DNA of 22,129 nucleotides from positions 1-22,129 of the IMG/VR virus record IMGVR_UViG_3300045993_000158; one strand, given 5' to 3'. Shown one piece after another: positions 10,812 through 21,069 of the stretch (positions are counted from its first letter, which is position 1; each line of letters starts with the position of its first letter). This DNA comes from a virus. The position numbers and the translations under genes were made by a program. The notes below the pieces were generated by a model that saw only the letters and a list, made by a program, of their open reading frames with translations, had not been told where the DNA came from and searched no databases.

Positions 10812-11267
10812 TTATTTATTTTCAAGTGAAACCATTATTGAGATACCGTAATGCTGTGTTCTTCCAATGAAAGCACCTACATAAGCACTATTCAAAATAT
10901 ACCATCCTGCTCTTATTCCTATGTCTTGATAATTATTACTTCCAACAGAGAAGTAAGGAGATATTTGTAATTTATCATCGATGAAATTATATCTACCATA
11001 CATAGTGAAAACAAGATCTCGTCTAGCTTCTGATTTATCATTAATTTTTGATTCTACACCACCAACGGTGAAACCTAACCAATCGATCCATACTCCGGTA
11101 TGAACACCGAACCCACTGAATCCAGAAGGATAGTATTTCATGGACTTGTCAATAATTAATGAAGCAGTTATCTTTGGACCGACACTGGCCTTCCTTGGAG
11201 AACCTTTCCAACATTGTGCGTTGCTTTGTATTGCTAAAAGCATAAATGCGAATAATAGGTTTTTCAT
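10812..11267 (-). CDS. Secreted, outer-membrane beta-barrel-like protein
   Basis: 151 residues from the ATG at 11267. The first 18 residues (MKNLLFAFMLLAIQSNAQ) are a clear type I signal peptide of Bacteroidota style; the following Cys lacks a lipobox. The rest alternates polar and hydrophobic residues, with aromatic girdle-like strands (GFGVHTGVWIDWLGFTVGG, LVFTMYGRYNF, AGWYILNSAYVGAFIGRTQH) and ends YGISIMVSLENK, like a small beta barrel of 8 strands. It has no structural phage match I recognise. In this position, among replication and packaging genes, it could be a lysogenic conversion or superinfection exclusion gene. A G10 tract lies 88 bp before the start. Confidence 0.6.
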   Translation of the reverse strand: MKNLLFAFMLLAIQSNAQCWKGSPRKASVGPKITASLIIDKSMKYYPSGFSGFGVHTGVWIDWLGFTVGGVESKINDKSEARRDLVFTMYGRYNFIDDKLQISPYFSVGSNNYQDIGIRAGWYILNSAYVGAFIGRTQHYGISIMVSLENK

Positions 11268-11289
11268 GATAATTGTTGTTTTTAGTTTC

Positions 11290-11557
11290 CGAAGGGATGA
11301 AGGCATTTAATGCCATTTATTACTTCTTACCCCCCTTTTTTATTTTTCACTGTACCCCCCCCCCGTATATATTTATAAAAAATCCCTTCGATAGCTTCGA
11401 AGTATTGATTTTATTAGGTTTTGATGCCTTCACTCAATGCCTTCGTTTTTTAAATAATGCCTTCGAAATGGTAAAATCCCTTCGTTTTTTTGTCGTTTGT
11501 TATTAAATAATAATTATATAAATAATATTATTAATCTATTTTTTTAGAATGCCTTCG
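11290..11557. repeat. Origin-like region: eight ATSCCTTCR repeats with an A/T-only stretch
   Basis: Plus-strand copies of ATGCCTTCG/ATCCCTTCG occur at 11382-11390, 11424-11432 (last base A), 11437-11445, 11457-11465, 11476-11484 and 11549-11557. Two inverted copies abut at 11290-11298 and 11298-11306. The middle copies are 20 and 19 bp apart, about two helical turns. Bases 11501-11545 are A or T except for a single C. Iterons next to an easily melted stretch, beside a primase-helicase and a DnaA-like gene, are the layout of a phage origin. The last copy lies inside the 3' end of the primase gene. Confidence 0.6.
11355..11364 (-). repeat. G10 homopolymer upstream of the outer-membrane protein gene
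   Basis: The minus strand has ten G in a row (C10 on the plus strand), with a second G6 run at 11335-11330 inside the same AT-rich 276-bp gap. The G10 lies 88 bp before the ATG at 11267. Such tracts are prone to slippage and could change promoter spacing. They may instead take part in origin function or be G-quadruplex halves. Confidence 0.7.
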
Positions 11558-16005: not shown

Positions 16006-17568
16006 TTAGGATTGGGTTTCTTCTAATGGGAGGGTAAGAACTTCTTCGCCAACTGATTTATTTACTTGGCTGATGATTGCTTCAAAATCAATTCCAGGTA
16101 CTTTATCTTGAAAGTCTTTGATGAATTCATAATCATCCATGCTGATATAACCATCAACATAATCATCAACTAGATCAGCCAAGTAAAGAAGCTTTGCAAC
16201 TTTGCTTAAATCAATTGCAGTGAATTTTTCTTCCATGATATTTAGGAAGTATTCTTCATGATCATTTACATCTACAGGAATTAGATCCCAATCGATCAGC
16301 TTTAAGAACCACTCCAAATGATCTTCATCAAATCGAGTAATAACATTGACAAATAATTTGCAGATGAATTTAAAAATGGACTGAGCATAAACACCTTTTG
16401 TAAACGTCTGTTCAATTACAAGCTTTGAGAAAGTTATTGCATGGTTTACTCTAGGAACATATTGAGTATTAGTCATACGTTGAGGAGAGTTTGAGTTTGG
16501 AGTTTTATCTTGTACTTCCTCTTCACGATCATCATTCAAATGAATAACCTGGCCTAATTGATAACCTGTAGTATATTTTCCAAGTTCAACAATGACTCCA
16601 TACAAATTGCTAAGCTCAACTTCACCTTCTTCTTGATCAGCATATGACTCATCCCAATCACTCATTGCTAGTACATCAGGAAATTTAGTTTGATATTCAG
16701 TGCTAATTTTTACAACTTCCTTCCCCTCACCTTTCAATTTCTCAATAATGAACTCAATATTCGCCTCTGCTTTATTATTCCAGCATTCAGCATCAAAGCA
16801 GATATCATCATCTTTTATATCTTCAAATAGGACCAGATTGCATCCACTTCTTTTAGAACATGATGTACATGCACCGGCTTTCTTAACTAATGATTTAGAA
16901 GTGATATCAAAGACAGCCTTATCAAGTTTTAAGTTGAAAGTGCGAGAAATCGCATAGCGTAGATCAGCGACAGTTCCTTCCTCTATATCAAAATGTTCAA
17001 TGATTTTTGCCTGCTCAAAAAATGGGAGCCTAGCGAATTGCTTTCCATGAGTGATGGTGAGTTTCCCTTCACGAATTGCATCCTGTACTTCTGGAACAAC
17101 CTTTTGAAGAATGATCCGATCGTAAACATACTTTGTACTCTTTCCTAATTTATCTGCAATCACTTCAGCAGTGGCCATGCCCATTGTGATCAGCTGCTGA
17201 AATGCATCGCTCTCTTCCATTGGATTAATATCCTGGCGTTGAAGATTCTCAGTGATCTGCATTTCGAGAACAATCTCATCAGAGAGTTTATCATAGCACA
17301 TACATGGAATAGAAGTTAATCCTGCAATCTTTGCAGCTCTGAATCTTCTTTCGCCAGAGATTAATCCATACTTGTATTCTTCTGCAGCTTTATGAAGGAC
17401 CAGTGGTTGCATTAAACCAACTGATTTGATGCTTGCTGCTAAATCATTTAAAGCATCTTCTTTGAATTCTTTGCGTGGATTTGTCTTCGATGGAACAATG
17501 ATATTCAAATCAATATCCATGAGTAACCACTTTGGAAGCTCTTGCTTCGTTAGTTTAGTTTTTGCCAT
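16006..17568 (-). CDS. ParB/Spo0J-like protein with a cysteine cluster
   Basis: 520 residues. The N-terminal ParB/Srx domain has NPRKEF, LVLHKAAEEYKYGLISGERRFRAA (GERRFRAA at 72-79) and EMQITENLQRQDINPME. The KorB/ParB HTH follows (MATAEVIADKLGKSTKYVYDRI). A Cys cluster then appears: C234, C237, C243, C257 and C262, like a zinc-binding site, as found in some phage ParB-like proteins. The C-terminal 240 residues are acidic and unrecognised. No ParA-like gene is seen, so partition is unproven; regulation, or the CTPase sliding clamp activity of ParB, are alternatives. The start overlaps the RT gene by 19 nt. Confidence 0.8.
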   Translation of the reverse strand: MAKTKLTKQELPKWLLMDIDLNIIVPSKTNPRKEFKEDALNDLAASIKSVGLMQPLVLHKAAEEYKYGLISGERRFRAAKIAGLTSIPCMCYDKLSDEIVLEMQITENLQRQDINPMEESDAFQQLITMGMATAEVIADKLGKSTKYVYDRIILQKVVPEVQDAIREGKLTITHGKQFARLPFFEQAKIIEHFDIEEGTVADLRYAISRTFNLKLDKAVFDITSKSLVKKAGACTSCSKRSGCNLVLFEDIKDDDICFDAECWNNKAEANIEFIIEKLKGEGKEVVKISTEYQTKFPDVLAMSDWDESYADQEEGEVELSNLYGVIVELGKYTTGYQLGQVIHLNDDREEEVQDKTPNSNSPQRMTNTQYVPRVNHAITFSKLVIEQTFTKGVYAQSIFKFICKLFVNVITRFDEDHLEWFLKLIDWDLIPVDVNDHEEYFLNIMEEKFTAIDLSKVAKLLYLADLVDDYVDGYISMDDYEFIKDFQDKVPGIDFEAIISQVNKSVGEEVLTLPLEETQS

Positions 17569-18512
17569 AATAATTTTTTAAGTAAGTGTGATGAATTGCA
17601 ATGCTTCGCCCATCCGTAATAAGAGACTATAGACTCCATGCGTGGTTCTTTAGCCATCTTACGGGCGAATGATTGCTTGATACTTTTGCGTAGTCTTGTA
17701 TGGGTATGGAATGAAACGTAACCGATAAAATCTATTCCTCTGGCCGCAACTGGGAATACCTGATAATTGCCTTTTACTTCTAAGTTCAATTGTGATGATA
17801 AATAGGTGGTAATCTCAGAAAGTAATTGATGAAGTTGTTCTTTATTGTCAGATAGAATTACGATGTCATCAGCATATCTGAAATAATGCTTTACTGCTTT
17901 TTCTTCCTTGATCCAGTGATCAAAATAAGTCAGGTAGAAATTAGCAAAGTATTGACTGAGGTAGTTACCAATCGGAACACCAGGAGCGCTATCAATAATC
18001 TCATAAAGCAGCCTAAGAAGATCCTGATCCTTTATTTTCCTGCGCAATAATTCTTTGAGTACTGCATGATCAACTGATGGATAGAACTTCTTAATGTCAA
18101 GCTTCAAGCAATATTTAGTACCAGCTTCATCACGAAGAGAAGTACGAAGATCTCTCAGCGCTGCATGAATGCCTTTCCCTTTGATGCAACTGTAAGTATT
18201 ACAAGTGAACATCGATAAGAAAATAGGCTCCAAAATATTCATGATAGCATGATGTGCAATGCGATCAGGGAAGTAAGGAAGTCGATAAACTTCACGCTCT
18301 TTAGGTTCATATATTTTGAACATCGTGTAGGCGGAAGTATGGTATGTTTTATTGATGAGGATCTGTTGCAACTGGAGAAGATTATCTTCTGGAGCTTTGT
18401 CGAAGTCTCTCACGCCTGCTTGTGATTTTTTACCCTTGCGAGCTTTGTGATCAGCGAGGCGAAGATTCTCCATGCAATAGATTTGTGAGTATAGGTTGTT
18501 AATTCGTTTCAT
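17550..18512 (-). CDS. DGR reverse transcriptase
   Basis: 320 residues. It begins with the DGR-type N-terminus (ENLRLADHKARKGKKSQAGV). RT motifs: RLPYFPDRIAHHAI (motif 2 region), YCLKLDIKKFYPSVDH (Asp139), GVPIGNYLSQYFANFYL (residues 178-194, the DGR-type SQ motif 4), YFRYADDIVIL (YADD, catalytic Asp215/216) and GIDFIGY (motif 7). The size fits DGR RTs, with no maturase or nuclease domain. The template repeat lies 106-178 bp upstream. It copies TR RNA and makes errors at template adenines. Its last 19 nt overlap the ParB-like gene. Confidence 0.95.
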   Translation of the reverse strand: MKRINNLYSQIYCMENLRLADHKARKGKKSQAGVRDFDKAPEDNLLQLQQILINKTYHTSAYTMFKIYEPKEREVYRLPYFPDRIAHHAIMNILEPIFLSMFTCNTYSCIKGKGIHAALRDLRTSLRDEAGTKYCLKLDIKKFYPSVDHAVLKELLRRKIKDQDLLRLLYEIIDSAPGVPIGNYLSQYFANFYLTYFDHWIKEEKAVKHYFRYADDIVILSDNKEQLHQLLSEITTYLSSQLNLEVKGNYQVFPVAARGIDFIGYVSFHTHTRLRKSIKQSFARKMAKEPRMESIVSYYGWAKHCNSSHLLKKLLWQKLN

Positions 18513-18617
18513 AGCCTTTGCACCCTAGTCGTGTTCACCTTTCGGTTACCAACGCCTATTTTTTTAGAGGTAATTTTTTGCAACTGATGGCAAGGTTTGC
18601 AGTAGTAAACTGATAAA

Positions 18618-18690
18618 CAAAAGTGGGAACCGACGTTCGTGTTAGTATTCGAGTTATTGTAATTCGAGTTCGAAAACCCAGAGCCGGAAC
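18618..18690 (-). ncRNA. DGR template repeat (TR)
   Basis: The 65-nt core is 18625-18689. It matches VR1 and VR2 closely, with 19 identical bases at the coding-strand 5' end (TTCCGGCTCTGGGTTTTCG). The mutable core between TTTTCG and GTCGG contains 17 adenines, most in AAY codons. All 20 core differences in the two VRs except one (a G-to-T change in VR1) are at these adenines. The 3' edge reads CACTTTTGT where both VRs have CGCCTTTGC, the expected IMH* versus IMH difference. It lies 26 nt past the stop of target 1. The 105-nt spacer to the RT start has a GAAA tetraloop-like hairpin. Confidence 0.93.
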
Positions 18691-18716
18691 TGATGCTACA
18701 TGCACAACCTAAATTT

Positions 18717-19100
18717 TTATAACAGCAGATAGTCTTTATACAGATCTGCGAACTGTTCGCCTAAGTAAATCGCTTTCACTGAAGAGTCAACGCAAAGGCG
18801 GGAACAGACGTACGTGCGAGTATTCGAGAGATTGTAACACGAGCGCGAAAACCCAGAGCCGGAAGGGTTCTTTTTACTTGCTTTCACACCGAACCAAGCA
18901 TAATACTTCCACTGATTACTATCACTCCAATCAGGTTGCCATCCATTATTGATGGCTTCGATGATGGTAACTAACTTATAAAAAGCCGTGATTGACTTTT
19001 GATGCTTCTCTGGTAGCATGGATACTTCTGGAATATTCTCTTCTGAGATTCCTAGTGTTTTGCAAGCATCGGAGAATGACTTAATATCTTTGTAATTCAT
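18717..19100 (-). CDS. DGR target protein 1 (127 aa)
   Basis: Paralogue of the next gene upstream. Residues 48-82 (IEAINNGWQPDWSDSNQWKY and YYAWFGV...) align with target 2, then comes the variable stretch, residues about 80-102 (GSGFSRSCYNLSNTRTYVCS), then a conserved C-terminal helix ending EQFADLYKDYLLL. Changed codons give R86, C88, L91, R95 and Y97. The VR is thus internal, with 25 further residues after it. Aromatic, Ser/Gly-rich layout is common in Bacteroidota DGR targets; a C-type lectin-like fold is possible but unproven. No signal peptide or membrane segment. It follows target 2 by 9 nt. Biological partner unknown. Confidence 0.85.
   Translation of the reverse strand: MNYKDIKSFSDACKTLGISEENIPEVSMLPEKHQKSITAFYKLVTIIEAINNGWQPDWSDSNQWKYYAWFGVKASKKNPSGSGFSRSCYNLSNTRTYVCSRLCVDSSVKAIYLGEQFADLYKDYLLL
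18800..18864 (-). repeat. DGR variable repeat 1 (VR1)
   Basis: 65 nt, same length as the TR core. Nine of the 17 core template adenines are changed, three of them to G and the rest to C or T. One non-adenine core change is seen (coding G to T, plus-strand base 18806). The last part (CGCCTTTGC) matches VR2, not TR. Lies inside target 1. Confidence 0.93.
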
Positions 19101-19109
19101 TGTAAAAAA

Positions 19110-19589
19110 TTAAAGGGTGAATAATTGTTTGTACACTTCTTCGAACTGCTTTGCAGCATATTCACATAACTCTCTTGACTTGAAGCAAAGGCGGGAACCG
19201 ACGCCCGTGTTAGAATGCGAGCCATGGTAAGCCGAGCCCGAAAACCCAGAGCCGGAACCGTCTCTCATGTCGAACCAGGGATAGTATTTGTACTCGTTGG
19301 AGTCATCCCAATTAGGCCACCATCCTTCATTCAATGCTTTTGCAATGAGTGATACTTTTACGAAAGCATTGGTTGCAATTTTATCTGCAGATAAGCTATA
19401 CAAATCACCTTCTTTTGGTTCTTTGTAAGGAAGTGCTCCATCTGTATCGATGCCCAATTCTTCGCATACATCTTCAAATGTTTTTACTCTCTCGATAACC
19501 GTTCCTGTTTTACCAAGAAGGATTTTACGAAGCACAGCAGCTTCTGATTCCAGAGTATCGAGTCTCTGTGTTAATTCTTTTTTGTTCAT
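19110..19589 (-). CDS. DGR target protein 2 (159 aa)
   Basis: Starts with a coiled-coil-like helix (KELTQRLDTLESEAAVLRKI), then a helical region and the shared domain IAKALNEGWWPNWDDSNEYK, YYPWFDMRDGSG. The variable stretch is about residues 112-135 (SGFSGSAYHGSHSNTGVGSR), with G118, A120, H122, G123, H125, S126 and G129 changed from the template. A conserved end follows (LCFKSRELCEYAAKQFEEVYKQ). No signal peptide. It is the first gene of the DGR cassette and follows two hairpins after the SSB gene. The coiled coil is absent from target 1 and may allow assembly. Confidence 0.85.
   Translation of the reverse strand: MNKKELTQRLDTLESEAAVLRKILLGKTGTVIERVKTFEDVCEELGIDTDGALPYKEPKEGDLYSLSADKIATNAFVKVSLIAKALNEGWWPNWDDSNEYKYYPWFDMRDGSGSGFSGSAYHGSHSNTGVGSRLCFKSRELCEYAAKQFEEVYKQLFTL
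19193..19257 (-). repeat. DGR variable repeat 2 (VR2)
   Basis: 65 nt, same length as TR core and VR1. Eleven of 17 core template adenines are changed, and no non-adenine core base is changed. 3' edge reads CGCCTTTGC as in VR1. Fewer background changes than VR1 suggest more recent retrohoming or less drift. Confidence 0.93.
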
Positions 19590-19688: not shown

Positions 19689-20291
19689 TTAGAACGGAGG
19701 CTCTTCATCCAATCCATCTGCGTTCACTGGAGCTGCAACTGATTGCTTAGTTAACTTTGGAAGGATGGTATTCTTCACCATATCTTCTAAGAACTCCATC
19801 ACATCTGAATCATCCCAAGTAAGCTTTCCTTTCACTTTCACTTGCTTCAACTCAGGTAATCCATTTGGATTATCTTTTGTGAAGTACCATTTGCAAGCCT
19901 GACCACCTTGATTGATGAATACAGTTGTTTTCTTCTTGTCTCCTTCGATGGTAAGCTTTGGAGTGATCTTCACTTTCTTACTCAAATCAACATTTGGAAG
20001 TGCTTTCAAAAATGCTGCTGCATAACCTGATGAGTAATTGAATTGAAGCGATTGAGTTTGCCCTGTCTCCTGGTCAAGTAGACTCACTACCCACTGCTTA
20101 CCAAACTCATTCTCACGAGTCTCAATGCCAGTGATCAGCCCATCGATGAAGTCGTAGAACTTCTCAAATACGATCTTCCCAGTTTGTGTTGTGCGTTCTG
20201 TCGCACCTTCAACCATTGCTTTGAATGATTGGCAAATCTTACCGTTACTGATATTGTAGTAAGCGGCGTTTGTAGAATTACCCGTTGCCAT
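19689..20291 (-). CDS. SSB-like single-stranded DNA-binding protein
   Basis: 200 residues. An alpha/beta core (GKICQSFKAMVEGATERT, KQWVVSLLDQETGQTQSL, KVKITPKLTIEGDKKKTTVF) resembles an OB-fold, with a Trp and several aromatics. A disordered linker (VAAPVNADG) leads to the acidic tip LDEEPPF, like the partner-binding tails of SSBs (DDxPF type). Placement next to a RecB-like nuclease and before replication genes fits a phage SSB. It starts 2 nt after the nuclease gene stop. Sequence similarity to bacterial SSB is not visible, so the call is by architecture. Confidence 0.6.
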   Translation of the reverse strand: MATGNSTNAAYYNISNGKICQSFKAMVEGATERTTQTGKIVFEKFYDFIDGLITGIETRENEFGKQWVVSLLDQETGQTQSLQFNYSSGYAAAFLKALPNVDLSKKVKITPKLTIEGDKKKTTVFINQGGQACKWYFTKDNPNGLPELKQVKVKGKLTWDDSDVMEFLEDMVKNTILPKLTKQSVAAPVNADGLDEEPPF

Positions 20292-20292
20292 G

Positions 20293-21069
20293 TTATTGTG
20301 GTTTAAATTGGTGACTTAATTGGTAGCTATTCATTCTTGGAGCTAGTGTACCATATTCCGCTTTCCATAACTCATGCACATTTTTGAAGATGTTCAAAGA
20401 ATAATCAGCAGGATTAGGATCAAAAAGCAATTGCCATCCGATACCTTGAATCGCATCTCCTTTACCATCAGTTTTTGTTTTAGCATTCAACCAAAGGATA
20501 GCGCGTTGATCAATTAGATTTTGTCCTTGTGCTTCTGCAAGCAATTGCTCGTAAGCTGCAAGCTGTAACCAGTAGTGAGGATAAACTGCGCCTGATGTTT
20601 TAATATCAAACAAGATGGTTTTGCCGTTGAGTTCAATGATCCGGTCCAGTGTGCCGGCATAACCTAATTTTGAAGAGACCATGATCAGCTCGATACTGCT
20701 GATGTTAGGTTGAAAGCGATCTCTGAAAGAAACATACTTCTCGAACATGTTCCACTCATTCAGATTCATGGAGATATCTCCATTCTCTGTAAGCAGTGAT
20801 ACTTCTTCACCAAGATCATATCGCTCAGTCATATCGTGAACGCGTGATCCTTTGCGGCCAGCTTCGTCTCTGATCTCATCAGAGTCCTGGCCATTCTTTT
20901 TCAACCACTCGAAGAATGCTGCTCCTTTCGGATAGCAGTCGAGAATTGTTGTAACTGATGGAACTGGAGTTCCTGTCTCATCGAAATAAAAACGGGAGTC
21001 TAGGAAAGTGATACGCTTACCCGTAAGGTCGAGGGCGTAATTCCTATTGTTATGTGTGATGATGTTCAT
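20293..21069 (-). CDS. PD-(D/E)XK nuclease (RecB/Cas4-like exonuclease family)
   Basis: 258 residues. Motifs in order: GSRVH (74-78, the leading His motif), GYAGTLDRI (Asp142), TILFDIKTSG (Asp155, Lys157: D-x-K), and WLQLAAYEQLL (Gln169 and Tyr173, the QxxxY motif). This is the RecB-like nuclease pattern. It likely resects phage DNA for recombination or degrades host DNA; SSB follows directly. No Cys cluster for a Cas4-type iron-sulphur centre is visible. Start overlaps the stop of a 26-residue gene (ATGA). Confidence 0.87.
   Translation of the reverse strand: MNIITHNNRNYALDLTGKRITFLDSRFYFDETGTPVPSVTTILDCYPKGAAFFEWLKKNGQDSDEIRDEAGRKGSRVHDMTERYDLGEEVSLLTENGDISMNLNEWNMFEKYVSFRDRFQPNISSIELIMVSSKLGYAGTLDRIIELNGKTILFDIKTSGAVYPHYWLQLAAYEQLLAEAQGQNLIDQRAILWLNAKTKTDGKGDAIQGIGWQLLFDPNPADYSLNIFKNVHELWKAEYGTLAPRMNSYQLSHQFKPQ

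Follow-up and report, generated by a model that had tools for sequence, protein, structure and literature searches.

Phage diversity-generating retroelements (DGRs) are regarded as host-range devices that work on tail proteins, and an Avd accessory gene is usual among DGRs but not universal. In the BPP-1 DGR, the spacer RNA folds, recruits the complex of reverse transcriptase (RT) and Avd, and primes cDNA synthesis from an internal adenine (PMC12875486). Two targets served by one template repeat (TR) have been described in Bacteroidota phages, the Bacuni phages of Bacteroides uniformis (PMC8143477). The second DGR target of Quimbyvirus is encoded apart from the structural module, with methyltransferases, a nuclease and a tRNA ligase nearby, and was linked to defence by its authors (Benler 2021, PMC8008677). 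The locus studied here is a DGR of a known kind. It is unusual in that its targets lie among DNA-replication genes and not among tail genes; new are the paired small targets in an early region, an RNA element of its own and the absence of any Avd gene that we could find.

The window is an entire virus record of 22,129 bases from a phage of Bacteroidota bacteria. It is near certain that it carries a DGR, the parts of which follow one another on the minus strand in the order target 2 (19589-19110), target 1 (19100-18717), TR (18689-18625) and RT (18512-17550). The repeats, the RT and the gene downstream of it are as follows.

18625 to 18689, minus strand: core of the template repeat, 65 nt, with 17 adenines and seven AAY codons
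18800 to 18864, minus strand: variable repeat 1 (VR1), 9 of 17 adenines changed and one other base
19193 to 19257, minus strand: variable repeat 2 (VR2), 11 of 17 adenines changed and no other base
18616 to 18632, minus strand: IMH* at the 3' end of the TR, with three fixed differences from the VRs, from comparison with relatives
18791 to 18807, minus strand: IMH of target 1, from the TR/VR comparison
19184 to 19200, minus strand: IMH of target 2, from the TR/VR comparison
17550 to 18512, minus strand: DGR reverse transcriptase, 320 aa (PHROG_1423, 1.5e-123; RVT_1, 9.7e-22; PDB 8ub7, 6e-50)
16006 to 17568, minus strand: ParB-like protein (ParB_N, 1.4e-24; HTH_ParB, 5.4e-14)

All three repeats were recovered independently at the positions given in a preliminary description of this DNA, and its counts of changed template adenines, with one non-adenine change in the core, proved exact. 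The ten sites at which the TR and VR1 cores differ comprise nine adenines and one G-to-T change (hypergeometric P 6.6e-6), and the 11 sites that separate TR and VR2 are all adenines (P 1.4e-8); 20 of the 21 core differences between the TR and both VRs thus fall at template adenines. We also confirmed that each of the seven AAY codons can reach 15 residues and never a stop, and put the number of possible proteins at about 1.1e10 for each target. Scanned from end to end, the window has no copy of the repeat other than the TR, VR1 and VR2. The record is a single metagenome contig, and the repeats might in principle reflect chance or an assembly artefact. We regard this as exceedingly improbable: the best chance match in 50 shuffled windows, none of them near such quality, had mismatches at 19 of 48 non-A positions, against 0 and 1 in the VRs, and the same structure recurs on an independent contig, L004.

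Homology between the repeats extends about 10 nt beyond the core, where positions 18624, 18622 and 18617 are fixed differences between TR and VRs. These three differences 3' of the core are the expected IMH*/IMH pair, and relatives commonly have A in the TR and G in the VR at this place. Within the window, the VRs lie inside coding target genes and the TR is intergenic. We do not claim a stem-loop like that of BPP-1 downstream of the IMH, the best stems being only slightly longer (4.85 bp) than those in codon-shuffled sequence (4.32 bp).

The RT open reading frame is intact and contains both GNYLSQ and YADD, in agreement with the motifs (SQ and YADD) first noted, and its sequence is consistent with membership in the DGR clade. 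It is 36% identical to the BPP-1 RT, which we take to be the protein in PDB chain 8ub7, and 58% identical to the RT of the crAss-like phage cr52_1. Its stop codon overlaps the start of the ParB-like gene. The element had been called complete; this holds for the TR, the VRs and the RT but not for accessory genes, as neither an Avd-type gene nor the small RT-linked gene of its relatives was found.

Evidence on activity comes from L004, a contig of another metagenome with an RT 93% identical to that of the window. Its TR core equals that of the window at all 65 positions. VR1 differs between the two at 12 positions, 11 of them on template adenines (P 1.5e-7), and the VR1 gene outside the repeat is identical at 284 of 316 positions. 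In this relative, VR1 variation is neither absent nor scattered at random, outcomes that had been named beforehand as evidence against adenine-specific diversification; with a single exception the changes are confined to template adenines. Because L004 shares the TR exactly and has an adenine-diverged VR1, we suggest that the element was active recently.

Relatives were collected through the RT, since a sequence search with the target 2 protein (VP2) gave one viral relative; they were drawn from 80 viral contigs and 80 bacterial genomes, the latter nearly all of Bacteroidota. Counted over 290 TR-VR pairs of relatives, changes affect 4448 of 6259 template adenines (71%), against 67 of 4568 C, 155 of 3430 G and 175 of 4616 T (1.5-4.5%). 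The adenine rate is inflated, since pairs were selected by their adenine changes and cut back to the outermost of these. This pattern resembles the trace expected of mutagenic retrohoming. Adenine-specific variation at two targets is supported by the window counts, by L004 and by these pairs.

Comparison of the TR-RT spacers of relatives revealed a further part of the element.

18504 to 18604, minus strand: conserved structured RNA element with three helices (consensus fold), ending at the RT start codon

Across 99 aligned spacers, changes on both sides occur at 11 of the 12 pairs of the three helices. Paired cells make up 95.0% in the spacer consensus against 73.7% after shuffling, with a covariation score of 0.635, compared with 0.214 for shuffled and at most 0.113 for slid alignments. 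The spacer is 98% identical between the window and L004, the third codon positions of the RT only 77%. The structure is visible by comparison only, because the folding energy of the window spacer alone is ordinary (z 0.89). The RNA model matches the window with 72.3 bits, the window being part of the training set. Among held-out sequences, the model recovers the element just ahead of the RT in gut DGRs with one target, in the crAss-like phages cr52_1, cr50_1 and LMMB (E 3e-8 to 9e-7) and in an archaeal virus, vir525 (4e-5). The model does not match BPP-1, and Rfam has no family at the window's element. In ten Bacteroidota genomes, whose loci belong to the training set or lie near it, the element occurs once per genome, at the DGR. 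By analogy with the BPP-1 spacer, which has both roles, we infer that the RT is probably recruited, and cDNA synthesis primed, at this RNA.

No Avd gene (PF05635) was detected in the window or on 19 contigs related to it, a search of limited sensitivity in which the control BalMu-1 matches and the BPP-1 Avd does not; phmmer with the BPP-1 Avd likewise found none beside the RTs. A different small RT-linked gene, PHROG_19665, of about 100 aa, is present in 147 of 161 relatives and also in vir525. It directly follows the RT in 55 of 74 genome loci and lies between target and TR in nine, one of which is a long open frame from the RT. Three examples are listed here.

L174, 11389 to 11700: RT-linked PHROG_19665 gene
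L175, 9357 to 9716: RT-linked PHROG_19665 gene
L022, 2590 to 2886: RT-linked PHROG_19665 gene

The order of strands and helices in the protein model (pLDDT 89.6) is that of an OB barrel, but there is no significant match in the PDB; kinship with the window's SSB-like protein was considered and rejected (hhalign probability 0.3%). We suggest that it may be a candidate substitute for Avd. One published survey refers, from earlier work, to a single DGR-associated protein without a Pfam entry (PMC10053308). The PHROG_19665 gene is absent from the window and from L004, and in the window the ParB-like gene occupies the place it has in most relatives. A missing factor is therefore possible, neither Avd nor the small gene having been found here, and the loss of such a gene could have inactivated the RT and left the VRs as fossils. 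We consider decay of this kind improbable, given the intact RT frame with its motifs, the unchanged TR core beside a VR1 diverged at adenines, and a spacer far better conserved towards L004 than the third codon positions of the RT. L004 itself lacks both kinds of gene and has divergent VRs.

The two targets are small paralogous proteins.

18717 to 19100, minus strand: target 1 (VP1), 127 aa, TR-proximal paralogue (PHROG_11581, 5.5e-27)
19110 to 19589, minus strand: target 2 (VP2), 159 aa, TR-distal paralogue with an N-terminal helix (PHROG_11581, 1.5e-25)

Target 1 matches no Pfam family, and for 114 members of the target family Pfam lists none, C-Lec families included; the uncharacterised PHROG_11581 matches 113 of the 114 aligned targets. 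Small targets of this type are about 125-160 aa long. The AlphaFold2 model of VP2 (pLDDT 85.8) is mainly helical around a poorly predicted VR loop (about 51) and has no fold match in the PDB; in structure comparison only uncharacterised phage proteins resemble it. The VR module can be aligned with its counterpart in the large gut targets over just 30 columns (hhalign 93.9%, E 1.6e-7), and the fold may be a derived C-Lec or a different one. When the VR is removed from the sequences, the upstream and the downstream targets fall into two clusters (7 label changes against 19 when shuffled), a result that uses label clustering alone, the tree having some unsure long branches. Their sequences suggest two old paralogue lineages kept side by side, in keeping with a two-part or divided function; the two proteins perhaps act as a pair.

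More than 130 related loci, in phages and prophages of Bacteroidota, have the layout target-target-TR-RT. In nearly all relatives the TR lies about 100 nt before the RT and the VRs about 190 and 570 nt before the TR; some have three VRs. Of 149 VRs at bacterial genome loci, 128 belong to small proteins of the target family; the remaining 21 are in other proteins, mostly of 430-880 aa and mostly from gut Bacteroidales. Gut Bacteroidales loci with the same RT family (L156, L164, L174-L183) have one large target of about 440-480 aa with conserved ENPFGHxWxWTDG and GSRLCF motifs and no Pfam family. In L158, two VRs lie far from the RT, about 8.2 and 8.6 kb before it, and one near, which looks like a split target array. 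Third targets were identified on two contigs, 6-14 kb from the cassette.

L115, 10559 to 10942, minus strand: third target, PHROG_11581-type family, adjoining a DnaB helicase gene
L033, 7924 to 8406: third target, PHROG_11581-type family

In the window, the exonuclease and SSB-like genes precede the cassette, and the ParB, helicase and primase genes follow it. Its upstream neighbours are listed below.

19689 to 20291, minus strand: conserved protein with an acidic ...DEEPPF tail, by its sequence probably a single-strand DNA-binding protein
20293 to 21069, minus strand: phage exonuclease (PHROG_298, 1.9e-39)

The cassette is probably an insertion, because no DGR occupies this place on 40 phage contigs that encode relatives of the SSB-like protein; the exonuclease adjoins it on all of them, and the helicase is in range on most. 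On ten phage contigs, a context that rests on the 25 commonest families, DNA polymerase, exonuclease, RecT, Gp2.5-like SSB, SbcC, ParB and methyltransferases lie within 6 kb of the cassette, and head, tail and endolysin (lysis) families lie farther away. Elsewhere in the window (10812-11306, minus strand), a 164-aa ORF lies between the terminase and primase genes. From an in-frame ATG it reads MKNLLFAFMLLAIQSNAQ, which is signal-peptide-like, and the remainder resembles a small outer-membrane barrel; the product is possibly a superinfection-exclusion protein.

Judging from this location, the targets are probably intracellular or otherwise non-tail proteins, and gene location makes intracellular binding our first choice, with receptor binding as its main rival. 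Under the latter, the targets would be virion or secreted adhesins and their early-gene position incidental. Tail proteins are indeed the targets of most phage DGRs (Roux 2021, PMC8144416); in cr52_1 and LMMB an RT of this family diversifies a tail protein encoded beside it, and the VR module resembles, in its 30 aligned columns, that of the large gut targets. An early-gene location may also be compatible with a virion protein, and a third, tail target is possible because most tail genes are missing from this 22 kb fragment. Against adhesins, no tail or head family occurs near the cassette in the ten phages, among the 25 commonest families, and the extra targets too lie in non-tail places. In Versailles, a PHROG_11581-type member lies between NinB, a recombination mediator, and the replisome organizer, 44 kb from the RT. 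Moreover, a hydrophobicity scan found a secretion-type N-terminus in 1 of 267 targets and no signal peptide pattern in the other 266. We therefore consider adhesins unlikely.

The reading that we prefer, and think likely, is that of a functional DGR within a replication/recombination block, the targets of which are most likely soluble, variable intracellular binders. Inserted into such a block of a Bacteroidota phage, the DGR would have its TR RNA transcribed together with the RT. The folded RNA just 3' of the TR would recruit the RT and may prime cDNA near IMH*, the RT would misread template adenines, and the mutated cDNA would replace VR1 or VR2, presumably by retrohoming. The difference between IMH and IMH* would make the transfer one-way. 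Two small paralogues could thereby each gain up to about 1e10 variants in one loop and act as variable binders, presumably inside the infected or lysogenic cell. More tentatively, and with appreciable doubt, we propose that this phage DGR lineage diversifies paired cytoplasmic binders against host defence or rival phages, using an Avd-independent RT, its own RNA and mostly an OB-like accessory protein. If the preferred reading is true, directed hypermutation is also used after entry, by a class common across Bacteroidota phages. This class of DGR is also compact; its RNA element is delimited and backed by covariation, and the accessory protein is a candidate replacement for Avd, features that would be useful in tools for protein diversification.

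Compared with the BPP-1 DGR (Mtd-Avd-TR-bRT), the window has a homologous RT, a TR 5' of the RT with a spacer between them, adenine-specific change and an IMH/IMH* pair, and the BPP-1 spacer, too, is a folded RNA, there with a role in recruiting the RT and priming cDNA (PMC12875486). BPP-1 differs in having one tail-fibre target and Avd, where the window has two small targets and no detected Avd, in a spacer RNA of another family, and in the stem-loop 3' of the IMH, which is not clear in the window. The crAss-like DGRs of cr52_1, cr50_1 and LMMB have RTs 48-58% identical to that of the window and the same RNA element before the RT, but cr52_1 and LMMB have a tail protein as their target. The Bacuni phages resemble the window in one TR serving two targets and differ in their tropism-linked DUF1566/Fib_succ_major targets and in the presence of Avd (PMC8143477). 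In Bacteroides phage BI-TP1 (L088:7881-8462), a PHROG_11581-type protein is encoded among methyltransferases and a tRNA ligase, the neighbourhood of the second Quimbyvirus target, and from these matching neighbours we infer that the two are the same. The Quimbyvirus target is a lone one far from its RT, whereas in the window a pair of targets is joined to the TR and RT in the replication block.
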